Source of the DNA: Alphaproteobacteria bacterium
GTDB lineage: Bacteria; Pseudomonadota; Alphaproteobacteria; Caulobacterales; Aquidulcibacteraceae
Reading direction: 5' to 3'
Assembly (NCBI GenBank): GCA_027488965.1
Contig: JAIYAO010000066.1
Coordinates: 1 to 34,579 of the forward strand
Length of the DNA: 34,579 nt
The position numbers were made by a program, and so were the translations under genes. Under the pieces are notes generated by a model that ran no database searches, was not told where the DNA came from, and saw only the letters and a program-made list of their open reading frames with translations. Position 1 is the stretch's first letter; each line of letters begins with the position of its first letter. Below, piece after piece: positions 1 through 6,613 of this stretch.

Positions 1-72
1 CGCCAGCGCGCCGACCGCCAGCATGATGAGGACCTCAAGGACGGAGAGGCCGCGCTCCCACCGCCGCGTCAT
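1..72 (-). CDS. Type II secretion pseudopilin, GspH-like, cut by window edge
   Basis: Only the first 24 codons are in the window; the gene continues past base 1. The ATG lies at 72-70, six bases after the gspG stop, so the two are almost certainly co-transcribed. The peptide has a short basic leader, then a type IV prepilin cleavage site (G^LSVLEVL) with Glu at mature position 5, followed by a hydrophobic helix. This is the class III signal of T2SS and type IV pilus pseudopilins. The position directly behind gspG matches the usual gspG-gspH order, so GspH is the best guess, but GspI or GspJ cannot be excluded from 24 residues. It would be a minor pseudopilin assembled at the inner membrane after cleavage by the prepilin peptidase encoded at 3565-4200. 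Confidence 0.75.
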   Translation of the reverse strand, partial: MTRRWERGLSVLEVLIMLAVGALA

Positions 73-78
73 GGCCGG

Positions 79-558
79 TCAGTCCTCGCCGCCAAAGACG
101 ATATCGGCCGCAAGGCCCTCGCCGCCCGGCTTGCCGTCTCCGCCGAGGCTGGCGACCCTCGGGCGGCCCTCCGGCGCCGCCGGCGCAGCGTACACATAGG
201 CGCGGCCCCAGGGATCTTCTGGCACCCCGGCGTCGAGATAGGGGCCACGCCACGCATCGCCGTCGTCGAGACCTCGCGAGGGGGAAGTCGCCAGAAGTTC
301 AAGCCCCTCCTGATCGGTCGGGTAGCGCCCGAGGTCGAGCCGCATGGTTTCGATAGCGGATGCGATGGCCTGGATCTGCACGCGCGCCGCCGTCACCTTG
401 GACCGATCAAGCTGCGCCATGAGGCGGGGTCCGACGAAAGTTGCGATGAGCGCGATGATCGACAGGACGATCAGCACCTCAAGAAGGCTATAACCTTCCT
501 CAAGCCGCCTGTGCGCGCGCGTGGGCTTCGGCGTCGATCCCGGTTCTCTGGTTGCCAT
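79..558 (-). CDS. gspG: Type II secretion major pseudopilin GspG
   Basis: Encodes 159 residues, normal for GspG, the main subunit of the T2SS pseudopilus. After a charged leader of about 27 residues there is a prepilin cleavage site (EG^YSLLEVL) with Glu5, then a hydrophobic helix ending in the GPRLM segment. The C-terminal half has the GspG hallmarks GRYPTDQEGL, GPYLD, PEDPWGR and a closing SLGGDGKPGGEG loop, which in characterised GspG proteins binds calcium. I chose the ATG at 558 because it gives a short basic leader; the open frame extends upstream to 744 but those residues are not pilin-like. It is divergent from gspE (743), leaving a 184-base shared upstream region, and precedes the truncated pseudopilin at 72. 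Confidence 0.93.
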   Translation of the reverse strand: MATREPGSTPKPTRAHRRLEEGYSLLEVLIVLSIIALIATFVGPRLMAQLDRSKVTAARVQIQAIASAIETMRLDLGRYPTDQEGLELLATSPSRGLDDGDAWRGPYLDAGVPEDPWGRAYVYAAPAAPEGRPRVASLGGDGKPGGEGLAADIVFGGED

Positions 559-742
559 GGCGCGAGAAAACGCCTTCTGCACCAAAGATGAAGCGAGAAC
601 GCCAAAACGGTGAACGCCGTTGCAGGCCATGAAGGCCGACTGCATCAAATGCGCGGCGCCAGCGCGGACTGAGAATACTTTTCCCTCGCCGCGCGAGACG
701 TCGGTGGGCGGCGGCGCGAGGCGCGCGCAGACGAGGTTGAAC

Positions 743-2346
<1,604 letters not shown>

Positions 2347-2350
<4 letters not shown>

Positions 2351-3561
2351 GCAGCGATCACACGTTTGCGTACAAGGGTAAGCGCGCGGATGGCGCGGCC
2401 GTTTCAAGCGTGATCCGCGCGCCGGACAGGCGATCGGCGCTGCTTCGCCTCGAGAGTGACGGCATCGTGCCGCTGTCTCTCAACGATCAGGAAGACGGCG
2501 CATCACCCTTGCGGCTGCGCCGACGCAGCGACGAGGCAGGGGACCGCCTGCTTGTTCTGCAGCAGATCTCCGTGCTCACCGGCGCGGGCATCCCTTTACT
2601 TGAAGCCGTGGAGTCCGTCGCCGCTGCCCTGACGGATCGCGCAATCTCGTCGCGTCTTCTTGGGACGGCTGCCGCGCTGCGCCGGGGCGAGTCGATCGCC
2701 GGCGCCTTCCAGACCGGCCTGCAAGGCTATCCTGCCCATGTCTACGCCCTGATCCGCGTGGGCGAGACCAACGGCAATCTCGCGATGGTTCTGGAGGAGG
2801 CTGTCCGCCAGTTACGCTTCGCGCAGACGCTGCGCCGCGACGTGCTCAATGCACTGGCCTACCCTGCTTTTCTCGTCATCGCCGCGGCGAGCGCGTTCGC
2901 CTTCCTATTCACCGTCGTTGTACCGCGCTTTGCCGAAATGATCGGCCCCGCGCGCACGGACATCGGCGGCCTATCGCGCTTAATCCTTGATCTCGGTGCG
3001 CTCTTTCACGCCAATCCAGTCGCGCTGCCGCTCATCACCTCAGGCGTCGTGCTTGCAGTGTGGTGGACGGCCATGACGCCGGAGGGCCGTGGCCAGTCCG
3101 CCCGTGTTCTTTCGGAGCTGCCGGGCTTCGGCGGGCTTGTGACGGCGGGCCACCGCGCGGCGTGGGCGCGGCTGATGGCGCTCGCGGTGAATTCCGGTGT
3201 CGGCATCCTCGACGCCGCGGCACTGTCGTTCGAGGCTGCGCCCGCCGGACGCTTCCGCGACCGGCTCAGCGGGTCCGTCAGCGCCCTGCGGGCGGGACGG
3301 CCGGTGGCCGAAGCCTTCGGCGCATCGGGGGCCCTCGACGCCATCGACCGGAGCCTTCTCCATACGGGCCAGGCGGCGGGAAAGCTCGGCGCCATGTTCA
3401 CCGTGATCGCCGACAGGCACGAGGAGGATCTTCGCACCGCCATAAAGCGCGGAACGGCGCTGCTGGAGCAGGCGGCGGTAGCAGTCGTCGCCCTAGTGAT
3501 CGGCGCAGTGGTGCTGGGGCTCGTTGGGGCGATGACCAGCGTCTATGAATCGATCGGGTGA
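2347..3561 (+). CDS. gspF: Type II secretion inner-membrane platform protein GspF
   Basis: The 404-residue product has the duplicated GspF/PilC cytoplasmic helical domains separated by membrane segments. The first domain holds LLVLQQISVLTGAGIPLLEAVE and IRVGETNGNL-type motifs (the sequence is interrupted here to keep motifs short), and the second repeats the pattern with ARLMALAVNSGVGILDA and LLHTGQAAGKLG. Membrane spans are visible near residues 175-195, 220-240 and 375-400. In T2SS the protein sits at the centre of the inner-membrane assembly platform and couples GspE to pseudopilin insertion. The ATG overlaps the gspE stop by four bases, implying translational coupling. Confidence 0.94.
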
Positions 3562-3564
3562 TCG

Positions 3565-4200
3565 GTGGAAGCAATCGACACCTTCCGCGCGTCCGTCCTG
3601 CCCATGGCGGTCATGGCACTGGCCGGCACGATCGCGCATGTGGAACTGCGCGGGAGGCTGCCCGGGCATCTGCTGCTCCACGCCCTGACGGCCTTCGCCA
3701 CGGGCGCCGTGCTCTGGGCCGTCCGCAGGACGCCGGCAGAGGCGCTGCACGTGGGCGCGCTGGTGACGGTGTGCCTCGCCATCGCCCGCATCGACCTGGC
3801 CAAACTGATCATCCCCGATGCACTTGTGCTGGCACTTGCCGCGCTCGCGTTCACCGCGCCGACGCATCTGCCGTTGCAGGATCAGCTCACGGCGGCCGCG
3901 ATCATGGGCGCCATGTTCCTCGGCGTGCGGCTCGGCTACCGCGCGTGGCGCGGCGTCGAAGGGCTGGGTCTCGGCGACGTGAAGCTCGCCGCCGTGATAG
4001 GCGCGAGCCTTGGTCTCGATACCGCCATGCTGGCGACCGGCCTCGCCGCCGCGCTCACCGCCGTATGGACAGCGGCGCCGGCCCTCAGCACGGGTCGACG
4101 AACGGGCATGCCCGTGACGCTGCGCACGCAGACGCCATTCGGTGTCGGGCTCGCTGCGGCGCTTGCGGCGTCCACCGTCCTTGCAGCGTCTGTTCGGTGA
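3565..4200 (+). CDS. Minimal prepilin peptidase, A24 family, GspO/PilD-type
   Basis: Aspartic membrane protease that would cleave the leader of the pseudopilins encoded nearby. It starts with GTG three bases after the gspF stop and encodes 211 residues. The two catalytic aspartates of family A24 are present: D77 in RIDLAKLIIPD and D138 in GLGLGDVKL. Several hydrophobic segments span the chain. Typical GspO/PilD enzymes (about 250-290 residues) carry an N-terminal cytoplasmic methyltransferase domain with paired CXXC motifs; that domain is missing here, so this resembles the short CpaA/TadV-like form. The genetic context, inside a gsp operon, argues for T2SS use. Whether the mature N-termini are methylated, and by what, cannot be told from this sequence. 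Confidence 0.88.
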   Translation: MEAIDTFRASVLPMAVMALAGTIAHVELRGRLPGHLLLHALTAFATGAVLWAVRRTPAEALHVGALVTVCLAIARIDLAKLIIPDALVLALAALAFTAPTHLPLQDQLTAAAIMGAMFLGVRLGYRAWRGVEGLGLGDVKLAAVIGASLGLDTAMLATGLAAALTAVWTAAPALSTGRRTGMPVTLRTQTPFGVGLAAALAASTVLAASVR

Positions 4201-4613
4201 GCCGCCGTCGCAGCCAACGGGGGTTCAGCGCGCTTGAAGCACTGCTGGCCGTTGCGATCCTAGGCATCGGTCTTGGCGGGCTGCTTGGCTGGCGGATGGA
4301 CCTTTCACGCCAGCACGCCCGCATGGATGCGATGACGCTGGACGTGAGCACACAGCGCAACGCCCTTGCCCTAGTCCGCGACATAAACCCGATGGCGACG
4401 CCACAGGGTGAGATGGCGGTGTCGCCGGGCATCGAGCTGCGCTGGCGCGCCACAGCCATCTCGGCGGTTACGCGCAGCGTGGCCTACCCGGCGGGTGACG
4501 GCGATTTCGACGTGGCGCTGTTCCGGATCGATGCGACGGTTGTGCGCAACCAAAAGCCGGCGCTCACCTTTTCGGTGGATAGCCTCGGATGGCGTCGCCG
4601 CGACGCGCGCTGA
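4197..4613 (+). CDS. Type II secretion minor pseudopilin, GspI-like
   Basis: Begins with a GTG that overlaps the peptidase stop codon (GTGA at 4197-4200) and encodes 138 residues. A short basic leader (SRRRSQRG) precedes the prepilin site RG^FSALEALLAV with Glu5, then a hydrophobic helix. The soluble part (DVSTQRNALALVRDIN, IELRWRAT, DVALFRIDATVV) and length resemble GspI, the minor pseudopilin that nucleates the tip complex with GspJ and GspK, but the match is by eye. It is the last gene of the rightward T2SS set; its stop is only six bases from the stop of the convergent curlin-repeat gene. Finding a minor pseudopilin on the opposite strand from gspG/gspH is unusual. Confidence 0.8.
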   Translation: MSRRRSQRGFSALEALLAVAILGIGLGGLLGWRMDLSRQHARMDAMTLDVSTQRNALALVRDINPMATPQGEMAVSPGIELRWRATAISAVTRSVAYPAGDGDFDVALFRIDATVVRNQKPALTFSVDSLGWRRRDAR

Positions 4614-4619
4614 GCGCCG

Positions 4620-5765
4620 CTACTGCGAAACGGTGACTGAGTTGCCGACGCCTGACTGGATCACTGTCGACACCGAGGGCGTGCCGGACACCTGCGTCAC
4701 GAAGGCAAGGTGTCCATACCCTTCCTGGGTGACGAAGGATGTCTTGCCCTGGCCCGCCTGCGCCACGTCTGCGAAATTGTCCTCACCCGCGCCCTGCAGG
4801 ACGTCGGACAGGAGATCCTCCCCGTCCTGTGAGACTTCAGCCACCATGAGACCTCCAGACTGGGTCACCGTGGAGGTGGCCGGACCGTCGCCCGCTTGCG
4901 ACACGGTGGCCGTCTGCCCACTGTCGGACTGCACCACGACGGAGGAGAGAATGCCCGAAGCGCCGCCGGTTTGCACCACATTGGCGACCTGGCCATCGCC
5001 CGTCTGCTCAATGTTGGAGAATGCCTCTGCGCCGGTCTGGCTGAGGAACGCAGTATGGCCAGCGCCCACCTGCATCACGAGCGAATTCAGCATGCCGCCG
5101 CCGAGGCTGTCCTGCGTGACGCTCGCGTAGCTATCCTGTCCGTCCTGCACAACGGCCGACTGTGCGGCGTCCCCGAACTGCGTGACGTCGGCAATCTGCA
5201 TCTCGCCGTCCTGCTGGATGTCGGACAGGAGCATCGCGCCCGGGCCTGAATCGGCCTGCAGCACCGTGGCGATGCCCGACTCGCCGTCCTGTTCGACGGT
5301 GGATATCGTCTGCCCTGCACCGCTCTGGCTGACCCACGCTGTCTGTTCCGTCCCGCTCTGTATGATGAGCGAGTCTGCGCCCGCGCCCGACTGGATGGCC
5401 GTAGCCATTGCATCCGCGCCGACCTGCTCGATGCGAGAGATGTTGGCGGCGGCGTCGCTGTCGGCCGCGCCGGCGCTTGATTGCGAAACCGAGGCGTCGT
5501 TGCCGTCGCCGGACTGGGTGATGGTGGAGACGTTGGCCGCCACATCGCCCACGGCGGATCCGTCATCCACCTGCAGCACGATCGCGAGATTGCTCGCGCC
5601 GATCTGGCTCACGTTCGACTGGCTGCCCCAGAGGCTCAGGTCCTGATTTATGTCGGCGACGTTGCTTGCGTTCTCCTGCGTAACGACGCTCTGGTTGCCT
5701 GGCCCGGCGTGGGCCGCTCCCATGGCCGCAAGCAGCACAAACATCGCAACGCTGGTCCGCAGCAT
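4620..5765 (-). CDS. Secreted curlin-repeat (amyloid-like) protein
   Basis: The 381-residue product starts at an ATG (5765-5763) preceded by GGGAGAA. It has a classical signal peptide with likely cleavage after AHA (residue 20). The rest is about 15 consecutive units of 22-28 residues, each made of two strand-like segments ending in Gln, with the pattern V-x-Q-x-G-x3-5-A-x-V-x-Q (for example SLIIQSGTEQTAWVSQ). This is the curlin repeat logic of CsgA/CsgB, where stacked beta-arches form amyloid. The mature chain has no Cys, almost no Lys or Arg, and is rich in Asp, Gly, Ser, Ala and Gln. It is much longer than CsgA (about 150 residues). No csgE, csgF or csgG gene is in the window. It follows RNase T2 by 158 bases and faces the T2SS operon, so it may be curli-like or T2SS cargo. 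Confidence 0.85.
   Translation of the reverse strand: MLRTSVAMFVLLAAMGAAHAGPGNQSVVTQENASNVADINQDLSLWGSQSNVSQIGASNLAIVLQVDDGSAVGDVAANVSTITQSGDGNDASVSQSSAGAADSDAAANISRIEQVGADAMATAIQSGAGADSLIIQSGTEQTAWVSQSGAGQTISTVEQDGESGIATVLQADSGPGAMLLSDIQQDGEMQIADVTQFGDAAQSAVVQDGQDSYASVTQDSLGGGMLNSLVMQVGAGHTAFLSQTGAEAFSNIEQTGDGQVANVVQTGGASGILSSVVVQSDSGQTATVSQAGDGPATSTVTQSGGLMVAEVSQDGEDLLSDVLQGAGEDNFADVAQAGQGKTSFVTQEGYGHLAFVTQVSGTPSVSTVIQSGVGNSVTVSQ
4623..5690 (-). repeat. Coding repeat array: about 15 curlin-like units
   Basis: Residues 26-381 of the curlin-repeat protein. Each unit spans roughly 66-84 bases. The protein pattern is conserved (paired V-x-Q strands separated by a Gly-containing turn) while the DNA is diverged between units, so the array is old or under selection at the protein level rather than a recent slippage product. 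Unit length varies through insertions such as GSAVGDVAAN and AADSDAAAN in the second and third turns. Confidence 0.75.
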
Positions 5766-5923
5766 GACCCGTTCTCCCCACGCGCCCGGCGCAAGGCGCG
5801 CGAACACCGAGGCAATCTCGCAAACCCAGCGGCCAGGCTGAAGCTTCTTCACCCCAACCGAGCGCATGGCGCGGCGCATCTGCCCCGCGCGGGAGACGCA
5901 TTGGGAGTCGCTGGAGCCTTCGC

Positions 5924-6613
5924 CTACCGCGCTGCCCGCACCGGCGGCATCGCCACGCGGCCCTGGCCGCACTTGTCGCGTACGTCGGCGCCGCAGACAC
6001 GGGGACGCCCCTCCCTGGTCAGACAGACCCGGACCTCGCGCAGGCGCGTGCGGTCGCATTGCACAGCGATCATGGCGGGCGTGATGCCCGGGTTCGCGGC
6101 TGCAAAGGCGCGCTCCACCTCGCCGCCCGTCACCATGAGCGTCCGCTGCGGCGCGCGGTAGGCGACGGGTATGGCGATGCCGGCGTACGCGCGGCGCGTC
6201 AGATCGAAATACGCCTGTGGGGAGAGCCCGGAGCATTTGCCGTGGGAATCCCATTCGTGCTCCACGAGCCGCGGGCTGGGCATGATGTCCAGCATGCTGG
6301 ACACCAGTGCGGGCGGCGCATCGCGCTGACGGCTTGGGCAGCCGGAGGGCCAGCCTCGGTCATGTTGCGGCCACAGCCCGTGCACGACGAAGGAGAATTT
6401 ACGGTCCCGGCCGCACTGGCGTGGCTCGCGATCCGACATGCCGTCCTGCGCGCAGAAGCTCGGGCTCCATGACAAGGCGAGCAGATAGTAGTCGAACCGT
6501 CCCGAAACATCCTGCGCGGAGGCAGGCGCAGTCAGCATCGCGCCAATCGCGATCGCGAACAGCGCACGCAAAAGCCCGCATGGCGCCAAAGTCCGCCTGC
6601 GACGGTCGCGCAC
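5924..6613 (-). CDS. Secreted ribonuclease T2 family protein
   Basis: The 229-residue product is a T2-type endoribonuclease, which cleaves RNA through a 2',3'-cyclic phosphate and usually acts outside the cytoplasm. Both conserved active-site segments are visible: CAS I FVVHGLWPQ (His78) and CAS II HEWDSHGKC (His119, Glu120, His124, Lys126). The N-terminus has a run of Arg, a hydrophobic core and an APASAQ signal-peptidase site near residue 34. I prefer the GTG at 6613-6611, two bases after the stop of the upstream gene; an ATG at 6664 inside that gene is possible. Several Cys pairs suggest disulfides. Translation is likely coupled to the unknown membrane protein upstream. Together with the acid phosphatase at 33792 it could serve phosphate scavenging from RNA. 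Confidence 0.92.
   Translation of the reverse strand: MRDRRRRTLAPCGLLRALFAIAIGAMLTAPASAQDVSGRFDYYLLALSWSPSFCAQDGMSDREPRQCGRDRKFSFVVHGLWPQHDRGWPSGCPSRQRDAPPALVSSMLDIMPSPRLVEHEWDSHGKCSGLSPQAYFDLTRRAYAGIAIPVAYRAPQRTLMVTGGEVERAFAAANPGITPAMIAVQCDRTRLREVRVCLTREGRPRVCGADVRDKCGQGRVAMPPVRAAR

Follow-up and report, generated by a model that had tools for sequence, protein, structure and literature searches.

The window, a 34,579-nucleotide stretch of DNA, corresponds to contig C101 in a draft assembly. Its gene at 4620..5765 (minus strand) very probably encodes a second, long subunit of the CsgA type (major curlin) for a curli system of the ordinary alphaproteobacterial CsgG/CsgF kind, the locus of which is cut by contig ends. 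This conclusion is based on sequence, namely the curlin repeats, the kinship to CsgA, the presence of csgF, csgG, csgA, and csgB in the same genome and cluster, the absence of CsgE, and the lack of a conserved linkage to gspI. On the best reading, the gene appears to have been stranded beside gspI by rearrangement.

The open reading frame encodes 381 amino acids, of which 41 are Gln and none is Cys. Its ATG at 5765 is preceded by GGGGAGA, which resembles a ribosome-binding site. By inspection, the N terminus is a hydrophobic, signal-like segment, MLRTSVAMFVLLAAMGAAHA, ending at AHA/GPGNQS; residues 1-21 have low confidence in the AlphaFold2 model. The Curlin_rpt profile (PF07012) matched the protein in a Pfam search with an E value of 2.5e-17, above the curated cut-off. 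The protein shows the curlin-repeat pattern, N-x-psi-x-psi-x-Q at a period of about 23 residues: 8 copies of the core motif N-x-hydrophobic-x-hydrophobic-x-Q are present, compared with 0.5 (maximum 4) in 2000 shuffles of the protein's own residues, and a looser form occurs 24 times, compared with 9.1 (maximum 18). The 361 residues of the mature protein, at about 23 per repeat, give approximately 15 repeats. The earlier note was right to describe a Cys-free curlin-repeat protein of 381 residues and about 15 units, and to regard it as an amyloid subunit encoded beside a type II secretion system (T2SS) operon.

The AlphaFold2 model consists of all-beta repeats and is confident (mean pLDDT 87, pTM 0.86), but a Foldseek search with it against the PDB gave no significant match (best E 0.16); a CsgA from Pontibacter (PDB code: 8c50) ranks third in the Foldseek list with a TM of about 0.3. 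By sequence, 8c50 is the sole significant match to the protein among solved structures (E 2e-15).

Over its full length, the protein is about 40% identical to the CsgA of its own genome (477 amino acids when the pieces on contigs C110 and C170 are read together), and 44% and 46% identical to the CsgAs of the csgFG loci in genomes G033 and G051, respectively; its identity to the CsgA of G025 also falls within about 40-46%. In a tree that also took in curlins of other Alphaproteobacteria, the protein and the CsgAs of its own genome, G051, G033, and G025 formed a five-member clade with support of 99/98. A mature start of PGN-x-S-x-V-x-Q and an insertion of DDG-x-x-VG are common to the protein and those CsgAs. 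The tree does not place the duplication, as it gives no branching order within the clade. No close relatives turned up when named genomes were scanned with the protein as query. Most of the named alphaproteobacterial csgG loci examined carry one to four long CsgA-like genes together with a CsgB-size gene, and multiple CsgA copies per genome, as well as proteins of about 15 repeats, have been reported (PMC3521004, PMC10192328). Therefore, an extra long CsgA is usual, and the position of the present one alone is odd. The earlier view of this gene as part of an undescribed system is not sustained, since the curli loci of Alphaproteobacteria often include additional long paralogues of CsgA (PMC3521004; PMC10192328).

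The genome (200 contigs) was searched for curli export genes. Within the window, no csgG, csgF, or csgE was found, as the earlier note had stated; however, the exporter is neither missing nor remote, as csgG and csgF lie on the abutting contig C110. CsgG was identified there by PF03783 (E 1e-58) and by its match to a solved CsgG (E 6e-54), and CsgF with an E value of 1.6e-30. CsgE is absent from the genome, but since all alphaproteobacterial curli systems lack csgE (PMC3521004), it has no defining value for them. Further curlin repeats are present on C110 and C170. The last 19 bases of C110 are identical to the first 19 of the window, and the frame of a minor pseudopilin (gspH/J-like), the start of which occupies 1..75 (minus strand), continues unbroken across the join. 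At its other end, C110 overlaps the beginning of C170 by 20 bases, and the csgA frame continues across. The chance of such an overlap is about 1e-5 (roughly 400 x 400 contig ends), and the C170-C110-C101 joins are drawn from overlaps of 19-20 bp in a draft assembly rather than from reads.

On one strand, C110 carries the N terminus of csgA, csgG, csgF, a TolC-type gene, HlyD, an ABC transporter, and gspD, followed on the same strand by a gene in the gspC/N position, gspM, gspL (a name given solely from its position and its resemblance to gsp loci in relatives), gspK, and the minor pseudopilin cut at the contig end. C170 carries the continuation of csgA, then a csgB-size curlin, a 161-residue protein, and multicopper-oxidase-like genes. 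The rebuilt order is csgB-csgA-csgG-csgF-TolC-HlyD-ABC-gspD...gspG, gspE-F-O-I, the curlin gene, and RNase T2, with about 16 kb between csgG and the curlin gene. The exporter seemed missing because a contig end cuts csgF and csgG from the window. The gene of the 161-residue protein lies directly after csgB (L011:1524-2009), and its product has no Pfam or NCBIfam match; genes resembling it follow csgB in G025 (L031:11310-11738) and perhaps in G051. The genome also has a second CsgG-superfamily gene (L012:1626-2570; E 3.5e-13), the C-terminal part of which gave a weak SH3-like match; this gene is likely a paralogue and not the curli exporter.

Within the window, the pseudopilin start is followed by gspG (79..744, minus strand; T2SSG, E 3e-31) and, on the plus strand, by gspE (743..2350; T2SSE, E 2e-122), gspF (2347..3561; T2SSF, E 1.4e-35), a gspO-like prepilin peptidase gene (3565..4200; Peptidase_A24, E 5.7e-12), and a gspI-like minor pseudopilin gene (4197..4613). 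The last was assigned by its N_methyl motif and its similarity to related gsp loci, in 11 of which the gene closing the gspE-F-(O) run shares 31-45% identity with it. It is convergent with the curlin gene, the stop of which lies six bases from its end, a spacing that had been noticed earlier. On the other side, a gap of 158 bases (5766..5923, minus strand) separates the curlin gene from its same-strand upstream neighbour, which encodes a secreted nuclease of the RNase T2 family (5924..6571; Ribonuclease_T2, E 1e-14). The nuclease was considered as a partner of the curlin and rejected, its relatives in the genus's two other species lying elsewhere, without gsp or curlin neighbours; it is probably unrelated to the curlin gene. 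A 9-mer, ACTCCCAAT, occurs upstream of both the curlin gene (window 5900-5908, minus strand) and csgF (L010 near 2333-2341, minus strand), and its 8-base core, CTCCCAAT, occurs once each in the window and in C110. This sharing is weak (shuffle p 0.05) and came to light by inspection, and no claim is made from it.

The upstream region bears on the possibility that the gene is a decaying or silent csgA leftover that yields no functional fibre. A sigma-70 consensus was sought in the 158-base gap and was not found; moreover, the gene is absent from the two congeneric species, and none of the relatives in the family carries a copy here. However, despite long divergence from CsgA, the gene retains a full-length frame, intact repeats, a signal-like segment, and a ribosome-binding-like site; a silent leftover is unlikely. 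Two further points weigh against the main reading. About 60% of the residues differ between the protein and the CsgA of its own genome, which leaves room for a distinct role, and a regulatory motif common to the upstream regions of the curlin gene and csgA was not found (shuffle p 0.78). A more novel reading, which we consider improbable, is that the T2SS, the type I secretion system (T1SS), and curli form a single, jointly regulated surface-secretion cluster in this lineage, with the second CsgA as a specialised fibre subunit that acts with T2SS or T1SS products in the matrix.

The earlier note suggested from the arrangement that the curlin might be exported by the T2SS or by remote curli genes. 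For export by the adjoining T2SS, with the gsp genes and the curlin gene as a functional unit, speak the six-base distance and the place of the csg locus in the same cluster as gspD. The genes are, however, convergent and consequently not co-transcribed, and a dedicated CsgG/CsgF exporter is present. In addition, the T2SS carries folded proteins, whereas curlins cross CsgG unfolded. A GspF relative occurs in 13 of 60 family genomes, and 11 gsp loci besides the window's own were compared, the weak relative in G026 being left out. None of the 11 has a curlin beside gspI, and a conserved gsp-curlin linkage was rejected on this count. In G025, G033, and G051, the three closest relatives with both csgFG and gsp, CsgA adjoins csgG, away from gsp. 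The two congeneric species have neither a GspF match nor CsgF. Overall, the T2SS appears very unlikely to be the exporter. By the earlier note's own standard, a complete csg locus outside the window and the absence of a conserved pairing with gsp refute the reading as a novel system, although csg is physically linked to gsp in this one genome.

In 10 of the 11 related gsp loci, the neighbour of gspI is an operon for type I secretion (ABC/HlyD, in most cases with TolC), and an SDR-like gene takes its place in G029; in the window's genome, the operon lies between gspD and csgF instead. Least probable of all is export of the curlin by this operon. The TolC-type gene directly upstream of csgF, both here and in G025, speaks for it, but the curlin has a putative Sec-type N-terminal signal segment and the same T1SS stands beside gsp without curlins in relatives. 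About 38 other alphaproteobacterial csgG loci were examined with flanks of up to 10 kb, and no T1SS or gsp relatives were found in them.

If the gene encodes a second CsgA, the protein would be exported by Sec, after which its signal would be cleaved. By analogy with its family, it would then most likely cross the outer membrane unfolded through the CsgG-CsgF pore and be built, alongside CsgA or in alternation with it, into beta-solenoid amyloid fibres outside the cell, which would be nucleated by CsgB. One possible scheme for its position suggests that a gsp/csg/T1SS block was duplicated in tandem and that partial losses left a single csgA beside gspI; such events would give exactly the order seen. 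In G033, two short curlin genes (L032:9415-10444, G033:C2) have no csgF or csgG beside them and adjoin EamA-like and acyl-CoA-dehydrogenase-like genes, which also follow csgB in G051 (L029); this pair may be another example of curlin copies that stayed behind where a csg locus once lay.

With the exporter hidden by a contig boundary, a would-be new route of curli export is removed. What is gained is one more example of a csgA paralogue that lies away from its operon, and a single genome, related to the hyphomonads, in which the genes for curli and for type I and type II secretion are physically linked in an unusual way.

Among known systems, E. coli CsgA and CsgB are related to the protein, which is matched by the NCBIfam families CsgB (E 7e-29) and CsgA (E 6e-19) below their equivalog cut-offs; however, the E. 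coli system has five repeats, an N22 signal, and both CsgE and CsgC. Pontibacter korlensis CsgA R15.5 (8c50; PMC10192328) likewise has about 15 curlin repeats, but it comes from another phylum, the repeats of the present protein are less regular and include a few insertions, and the Foldseek match is not significant. The csgH-type alphaproteobacterial loci also encode curlin repeats, but in short curlins accompanied by CsgH, with no CsgF or curli-type CsgG, whereas the window's genome lacks CsgH and has CsgF and CsgG. Curlin repeats are present in 39 of the 60 family genomes, and CsgF with a curli-type CsgG in only 12; CsgH (PF21112) is present in 26 of the 27 genomes that have a curlin without CsgF, typically with short curlins (loci from the family-level curlin searches include L060:8634-10015, L061, L064, L054, and L059). 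Three genomes that are 99-100% complete (G001, G030, and G047) encode a curlin and CsgH but gave no match whatever to CsgG. The occurrence of curlin and csgH without other csg genes was already noted by Dueholm 2012 (PMC3521004). The closest likeness is to the csgF-csgG-csgA(n)-csgB loci of Alphaproteobacteria (Hyphomonadaceae, Erythrobacter, and Sphingomonas), whose CsgAs are likewise long, with the same motif and mature start, and which, as in the window's genome, have csgF, csgG, and csgB without csgE. The present curlin gene differs from them in its place, as it lies beyond the gsp/T1SS block and not in tandem with csgA.
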